Below are positions 8,697 to 9,645 of a stretch of DNA of 64,000 bases, one piece after another. The first letter of the stretch is position 1. The number at the start of each line of letters is the position of its first letter. The position numbers were made by a program, and so were the translations under genes. The notes beneath the pieces were generated by a model. That model was not told the DNA's origin and did no database searches. It saw only the letters and a list, made by a program, of their open reading frames with translations. Source of the DNA: Olsenella uli DSM 7084 (GTDB lineage: Bacteria > Actinomycetota > Coriobacteriia > Coriobacteriales > Atopobiaceae); NCBI RefSeq assembly GCF_000143845.1, contig NC_014363.1:791186-855185 (forward strand), given 5' to 3'.

Positions 8697-9145
8697 GAGA
8701 CTCCCGTGAAAAAGCCGACTGGTTGTCTGTGTATATACCCAAACGGGCTTGCGAGCGGAGTCCACCCGGATGTCCGACGCGGGTCGGGGGCGTGAGCCGG
8801 GCGCGTTGGTTGGGGGTCTGGGATCGCCAGATGGGAGCCATGAGGCTGCCACGGGTGCTACCAGGCGCATGTTTTCATTCGTCCGTTCGCCGACGAAATC
8901 AAACCGCTCGCACGTAGAGTCTGATTTCTTGTTGTCGGAATATGCCTCCGCATAGAATGCCACTTTCATACGTGCACATGGCAAGAAGGGAACAAGCCAT
9001 TCGGCAGGGCTCATAAACGACGATTAACTGCGGCGACTGCGAGGGCGAAAGCTCGCCCCAGAGCTTGAAACGCGTCGCGCCCGGCGTTACAACATGCTTG
9101 AGCGAGGTGTCGACGTGCAAGGCGGACCCCTGGTTGGAGGCTGGC
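8697..9145. other. Gene-free stretch of about 450 bases
   Basis: This is the divergent intergenic region between the TPR gene (minus) and the small membrane protein gene (plus). It is less GC-rich than its surroundings around 8880-9020. The minus-strand TATATA at 8732-8737 is a plausible -10 element. I see no RNA gene, no repeat and no convincing coding frame. Confidence 0.5.
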
Positions 9146-9328
9146 ATGAGTTCCTTCTCGGTTCCAATGGTACAGTTCATCGCCCTGACGCTGCTCTGGT
9201 ATGTTGCGGCGCTTGCTGCCCTCATGGTCGTTGCGGGTCTGTTGCGGCTTGCCGTGCGGAAGTTCCTGGGATCGCAGGAACCGGAGCCCAATGCCACGAC
9301 CTATCCCACGGAGGTCCCTTGGGTCTAG
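9146..9328 (+). CDS. Small single-pass membrane protein
   Basis: A 60-codon gene. An 8-residue N-terminus is followed by one long hydrophobic helix (about residues 9-35) containing LLWYVAALAALMVV, then a basic LAVRKF stop-transfer segment and a short acidic/Thr-rich tail. GGAGG lies 5 bases before the ATG, the main reason to believe it is translated. It stands alone, and the repeat array follows its stop codon directly. I do not recognise a family. Confidence 0.6.
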   Translation: MSSFSVPMVQFIALTLLWYVAALAALMVVAGLLRLAVRKFLGSQEPEPNATTYPTEVPWV

Positions 9329-9376: not shown

Positions 9377-9645
9377 TCACAACAGTTTCCCTCCCGTCCG
9401 TTAACGGGAGCCCTTGGGATGGCAGGGGAGGTATTGTGAAAAGTTTCTTGTCCATTTTCACAGAAGCTCCCCTGTCATCCGCATCTCAGATGCCTGATGG
9501 ATGGCAGGGGAGGTATTGTGAGCGGCTGCCTGCTTCCGGCTCACACTAATTCACCTGTCGTCCGGAGGGCGTGCAGAGATGGACGGCAGGGCAACTTCTG
9601 TGAGCCGTGGCGGTAAAGAGACTCACAGAAGCCCGCCTGCCAGCC
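9377..9645. repeat. Array of seven alternating inverted 23-bp repeats
   Basis: Seven copies of a 23-bp unit related to TCACAGAAG..CCCCTGCC.TCC lie at 9377, 9417, 9458, 9499, 9541, 9581 and 9623. The 2nd, 4th and 6th are in reverse orientation. Start-to-start steps are 40, 41, 41, 42, 40 and 42 bases, so the same-strand period is about 82. Spacers of 17-19 bases separate the units and do not resemble each other. The reverse copies at 9417-9439 and 9499-9521 are identical, while forward copies differ by a few bases. Consecutive forward/reverse copies pair over 17-19 of 23 positions, giving three successive long hairpins plus an unpaired seventh arm. The array fills the gap between two convergent genes, so both transcripts would run into it. 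No cas, RAYT or transposase gene is nearby. Confidence 0.85.

Follow-up and report, generated by a model that had tools for sequence, protein, structure and literature searches.

Dispersed, helically phased inverted-repeat arrays in the Olsenella uli chromosome as putative multi-site protein-binding platforms

Seven copies of a 23-bp sequence, set in alternating orientation, occupy an intergenic gap of Olsenella uli DSM 7084, whose published genome comprises 2,051,896 bp with a G+C content of 64.7% (PMC3035265). The array lies in a 64,000-nt stretch of the chromosome (hereafter the window; NC_014363.1, positions 791,186–855,185), the G+C content of which is similar to the genome-wide value. 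What maintains such an array, and whether it acts as RNA, as DNA bound by a protein or as a relic of some repeated element, is the question that the locus raises. A preliminary description made from the letters of the window had named a protein-binding array as one option among several and had proposed selection on structure; here the array is compared with its counterparts throughout the chromosome and with known repeat families.

The copies begin at window positions 9377, 9417, 9458, 9499, 9541, 9581 and 9623, and their strict alternation and spacers of 17–19 bp (17, 18, 18, 19, 17, and 19) are as first described. Six of them, U1 to U6, make up a 227-bp core (9377–9603) with an architecture common to 22 intact arrays. 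The core opens with the forward unit U1 (9377–9399; TCACAACAGTTTCCCTCCCGTCC) and a 17-bp spacer (9400–9416) in which the usual Rn-TTTT tract is weak (GTTAACGGGAGCCCTTG), followed by the reverse unit U2 (9417–9439), a spacer containing the AT-rich element AAAGTTTCTTGTCCATTT (9440–9457) and the forward unit U3 (9458–9480). The central spacer between U3 and U4 (9481–9498) measures 18 bp here and 17, 18, or 28 bp in other arrays. The reverse unit U4 (9499–9521) has the same sequence as U2, bearing out the reported identity of two reverse copies, and is separated by 19 bp (9522–9540) from the forward unit U5 (9541–9563); a 17-bp spacer that lacks the usual terminal A-tract (9564–9580) then leads to the reverse unit U6 (9581–9603). 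Beyond the core, and 19 bp away (9604–9622), stands an optional outer forward unit, U7 (9623–9645), with a score of 20.9, the lowest of the seven copies. To the left of the array, a probable 60-residue membrane protein with a single span (9146–9328) lies inside a longer listed open reading frame (9065–9328); it has no Pfam match.

Motif and architecture of the arrays

A sequence model of two neighbouring units, together with a weight-matrix scan, identified 26 dispersed arrays comprising 164 units in the single 2,051,896-bp contig searched, which represents one genome of the species. Twenty-two arrays are intact, with six to eight units, and four, with two to four units, are apparently decayed. 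The preliminary description had looked to a consensus search of this and related genomes for similar arrays; within this genome such arrays exist, and their spacers are unlike. The unit is an asymmetric 23-bp motif, TCACAnnnnnTnnnnnnnCRTCC, in which positions 1–5, 11, 19, and 21–23 are near-invariant and position 20 is a purine (R). A strict search of the whole chromosome with this motif returned 141 sites, of which 140 fall inside arrays; the sole exception, at 1726446, was read as a chance match, and a reversed control pattern returned no site. Sites of the motif thus do not exist independently of arrays, and the array as a whole is the functional unit. Because the strict motif is nearly confined to arrays, and because the window array reaches a motif-free dyad-chain score of 93, whereas shuffled O. 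uli loci do not exceed 63, the window array is far beyond chance. A one-off local duplication of a 23-bp sequence, which the identical units U2 and U4 might have suggested, is ruled out by the recurrence of the same register in 26 arrays genome-wide; units within an array are, moreover, no more alike than units from different arrays, leaving this explanation with a negligible probability.

The core of every intact array follows a single, mirror-symmetric plan (forward unit, 17 bp, reverse, 18–19 bp, forward, 17–18 bp, reverse, 18–19 bp, forward, 17 bp, reverse), spacers lengthened by a whole turn apart, and an optional extra unit may follow 18–19 bp past either end. Core length is 226–227 bp in 17 of the 22 intact arrays and 237–238 bp, one DNA turn more, in the other five. 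When all arrays are tallied, tail-to-tail spacers measure 17 bp (56 times), 18 bp (12), or 28 bp (3) and head-to-head spacers 18 bp (30), 19 bp (32), or 29 bp (3), so that large changes correspond to a single B-DNA turn (+10 or +11 bp). In the array at chromosome position 696454 the fourth unit is shifted by about one turn, with flanking spacers of 28 and 8 bp in place of the usual 18 or so on each side, and the core is still 227 bp long. The only off-phase spacer, of 12 bp, belongs to an array that has decayed (734101). The lengths of the inner spacers offset one another: in 14 of the 16 arrays free of whole-turn changes the three of them total 55 bp, against 7.1 arrays expected on reassortment (permutation p = 0.0007). 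Whole-turn spacing changes within a conserved overall geometry are the pattern of helically phased multi-site protein-binding arrays in general, and the O. uli arrays show it.

The spacers between U1 and U2 and between U5 and U6 are 17 bp long in all 22 intact arrays, and most of them, read inward from the outer ends, carry a T-tract at positions 3–6, with T at position 4 in 39 of 44. Spacer sequences are indeed unlike each other, as first noted; they are not featureless, given their fixed lengths and the conserved T- or A-tracts in two of them. An AT-rich element resembling AAARTTTTkcAACtaTTT, present in the window array at 9440–9457, recurs in inner head-to-head spacers of about nine arrays and never occupies more than one inner spacer of an array; in several of the arrays that lack it, an AT-rich stretch lies just beyond an end unit.

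Short repeats with unlike spacers recall CRISPR arrays. The O. uli arrays are distinguished by strictly alternating rather than direct repeats, by 17–19-bp spacers of compensated length and by their dispersal as arrays of six to eight units, and their exclusion from the CRISPR class in the preliminary description is upheld. Two other systems bear comparison. The sopC locus of the F plasmid, a centromere-like partition array of ~43-bp repeats, also places several protein sites about four DNA turns apart for one large complex (in O. uli a putative one), but its repeats are direct and confined to one locus per replicon, whereas the O. uli sites alternate and occupy 26 chromosomal loci. The res site of Tn3-family elements consists of three pairs of inverted half-sites, with phasing between pairs being important, and O. 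uli arrays could by analogy be recombination or resolution sites at which six alternating half-sites are bound by recombinase dimers. Six alternating sites and whole-turn spacing changes follow the logic of res, and the genome encodes tyrosine recombinases; however, 23-bp units with 17–19-bp spacers are far larger than resolvase half-sites and differently spaced, no common crossover sequence stands out at the centre, the 26 copies have no linked recombinase as far as tyrosine recombinases are concerned, and recombination among so many sites of both orientations would lead to chromosomal rearrangement. Of the complete tyrosine recombinases, the third (at about 1,912,487) adjoins an hsdS-like gene fragment, suggesting another role, and by eye the locus recalls a phase-variable type I restriction locus. 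A res-type function is accordingly improbable, and both res sites and plasmid partition arrays resemble the O. uli arrays in working principle only.

Pairing, covariation and folding

Inverted neighbours would fold into long hairpins in either transcript, which might serve as a terminator, a processing site or an sRNA, and the 281-nt stretch holding the window array does fold better than its shuffled versions (z = −7.0). Such folding is expected of any inverted repeat. The claim that pairing between neighbours survives the drift of the copies is correct, since every unit carries the same motif, but it is not a sign of structure: arm pairs are standard in 78.0% of cases as observed and in 78.0% when shuffled, with covariation scores of 0.130 and 0.136, respectively, and over all 66 tail-to-tail and 63 head-to-head neighbour pairs the observed and shuffled pairing means agree (p = 0.40–0.86). 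The similarity of neighbouring units does not exceed that of non-neighbours or of units from other arrays. The bases just outside the arms, said to have changed together, appear to do so significantly in a subset of 31 pairs and not in all 66 (p = 0.36). Selection on RNA structure, for which the preliminary description had proposed a covariation test, is thus not supported in either kind of neighbour pair, and an RNA hairpin under covariation is rejected, pairing and covariation being at the shuffled level.

Other observations agree on this point. Single units fold, and match their own complement, no better than shuffled sequences and have no stem-loop of their own. Spacing is held in DNA turns, a constraint for which hairpin loops have no use, and neither terminator-like nor promoter-like sites were found. 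Twelve other array loci matched no Rfam family at the gathering threshold, and in the window, searched with E-values up to 1, the sole matches were at chance level and involved two miRNA families, falling well short of their gathering scores. The unit is a DNA motif, not RNA, and a function in RNA is very improbable.

Genomic setting, age and origin

All arrays are intergenic, and by approximate gene calls their neighbours stand in all orientations; the convergent setting of the window array is not general, since tandem genes flank many arrays and divergent genes about three. Adjacent proteins (read by eye, with Pfam applied to some only) include DnaK, LeuS, MetG, HisS, pyruvate kinase, HisF, a glycerol-kinase-like protein and transporters, and have no common theme. 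Since these neighbours read as unrelated and mostly housekeeping, the arrays are not a regulon. Some regulators have multi-site phased operators, and the arrays might by that precedent be operators through which a transcription regulator controls the adjoining genes; against this, most arrays lie outside divergent promoter regions, no isolated motif site occurs in promoters elsewhere, and the neighbours read as unrelated and often housekeeping genes, so that control of this kind is very improbable. Among neighbour genes of low third-position GC, no DNA-binding candidate was found except a TetR.

Imperfect tandem repeats, unlike each other in sequence, flank most arrays (for example L087:4299–4390, L094:3791–3902, L093:8329–8398, and L079:4351–4418) and are about five-fold denser per base there than in array-free gaps (p = 0.0005); they could be duplications formed at a replication obstacle, where replication stalls, or simply relaxed sequence. 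When position 1 is used as the origin, because a ParB match lies at ~1 kb, 23 of the 26 arrays fall 300–900 kb from it (p = 0.001, with bounds picked after inspection). Arrays are sparse near this presumed origin and absent within ~125 kb of the point opposite, a distribution that is not required of a general organiser of the chromosome and counts against one. The only ParB_N match in the genome (930–1196) is not beside an array. Some arrays cluster within 4–16 kb (696454, 706276, 718088, and 734101; 1589705 and 1593884; 1648933 and 1652888). Decayed arrays are found at 90723, 734101, 1155589, and 1307531, and a single unit stands near 1818830; between one and four units can still be recognised at these places, which could help to show the order in which parts of an array disappear.

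Identity between cores is 0.75 for the best pair and has a median of 0.64. With the best core identity only 75%, there are no recent copies. Units within one array differ from each other as much as units of separate arrays do, and as much as sequences drawn independently from the motif would; non-motif positions are near saturation, with motif, tracts and lengths intact. Such intactness amid saturated drift is the mark of an old set of sites under purifying selection.

The array type is so far confined to O. uli, of which one genome was examined and which is the only species of its GTDB genus in the set searched. With the sequence model, no related array was found in 39 relatives or, under stricter filters, in 139 other genomes of the family. 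Two exact patterns detected nothing comparable among ~85,000 GTDB species genomes and no arrays in IMG/VR; none were found in plasmids or phages. The sole GTDB pattern match, in a Nitrospira MAG, was rejected as a lone pair without an array. A motif-free detector of the architecture reached at most 69 over 800 kb from eight relatives, the level of shuffled sequence, where most intact O. uli arrays score 70–93; it scores turn-lengthened arrays low, and its sensitivity is thus incomplete. A dyad detector located, in one relative, alternating inverted repeats of 11 bp (CCGCACAGGTT / AACCTGTGCGG) with ~18-base spacers (L130:2050–2190), possibly another intergenic repeat family. No description of such arrays was found in the open-access literature.

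Dispersal and confinement to one species leave some probability for an old mobile-element origin. The arrays could be non-autonomous elements of MITE-like or BIME-like type, carrying the sites of a transposase or recombinase supplied in trans, which spread in the past and are now mostly fossil or slowly active: copies are scattered in unrelated intergenic gaps, few of them between divergent genes, some are partly decayed (two to four units), and the alternation of sites recalls BIMEs (PMC2817692). BIMEs are the nearest known system in layout, being extragenic, present in many copies and built of regularly spaced units in alternating orientation, with protein binding and chromosome organisation suggested as roles (PMC2817692), and the O. 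uli arrays share the extragenic location, multiple copies, regular spacing and alternation. REP units are, however, imperfect palindromes with their own stem-loop, whereas the O. uli unit is not palindromic, and their cognate RAYT protein has no counterpart in O. uli, where Y1_Tnp (PF01797) found no match (5 of 14 control genomes matched). The arrays are therefore not plain REP/BIME, as the preliminary description had held, and differ further in their fixed architecture of six to eight units, whole-turn spacing, lack of recent copies and lack of isolated units. MITEs such as Correia and RUP are likewise small, dispersed intergenic elements with inverted sequence; the O. uli arrays have no constant terminal inverted repeats (6, 7, or 8 units, with unlike flanks), bear six to eight putative binding sites throughout, and have diverged between copies to saturation.

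These ends, varying among 6, 7, and 8 units, leave no fixed termini for a mobile element, and the absence of near-identical copies (best core identity 0.75), together with saturation outside a motif and spacing that are intact, is unlike a dead element. Of the transposase domains tested, the genome lacks rve (PF00665; Mu/Tn7/IS3 type) as well as Y1_Tnp. A mobile origin is on this evidence unlikely, at a probability well above that of the recombination, operator and RNA readings.

Possible roles of the arrays

A fixed core length, changes by whole turns, spacers that compensate one another, tracts placed symmetrically and a motif found only in arrays together argue for a single nucleoprotein complex on six to eight sites, a well-supported step in the argument. 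The arrays are very probably multi-site protein-binding platforms for a putative protein, the phased geometry and array-only motif favouring that option among those first listed. The protein would be sequence-specific, would probably be particular to the lineage and might form dimers. Bound at six to eight sites, all on the same face of the DNA, it would build a single complex that bends or wraps the 227-bp core, assisted by the T- and A-tracts of the two fixed 17-bp spacers.

That the neighbours are unrelated, that isolated sites are absent and that the arrays have long been maintained all favour a role at the level of the chromosome over gene regulation. We put the probability that the arrays are chromosomal multi-site protein-binding platforms with an architectural or otherwise host-serving role at roughly 55%. 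What such platforms would do can be guessed at: they may anchor, bridge or insulate the chromosome at intergenic points dispersed along it, instead of controlling adjacent genes. Chromosome architecture is our first guess and a fossil mobile element our second, the former being held only tentatively; dispersal to 26 places needed some copying process, which counts against the platform as pure structure. On the same tentative footing, the arrays may constitute a lineage-specific chromosome-structuring system, in which a putative protein would form about two dozen complexes of the same geometry on six-site, 227-bp cores in both arms of the chromosome. Such a system would correspond, in a bacterium, to anchoring or insulator sites spread along a chromosome and would be unrelated to parS, matS, REP/BIME or any family tested.

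The arrays match none of the known repeat families tested. That their copies have drifted to saturation and yet keep the motif positions, the tracts and the precise lengths shows that three-dimensional geometry is under strong selection, and the set predicts an abundant sequence-specific protein with ~160 sites in one small genome. The arrays also offer a clean test system, open to alteration site by site, spacer by spacer and turn by turn. If their role is architectural, O. uli would possess a chromosome-organising system outside those known; if they are mobile, they would belong to an unusual kind of transposition system, one with a multi-site platform as its recognition region.
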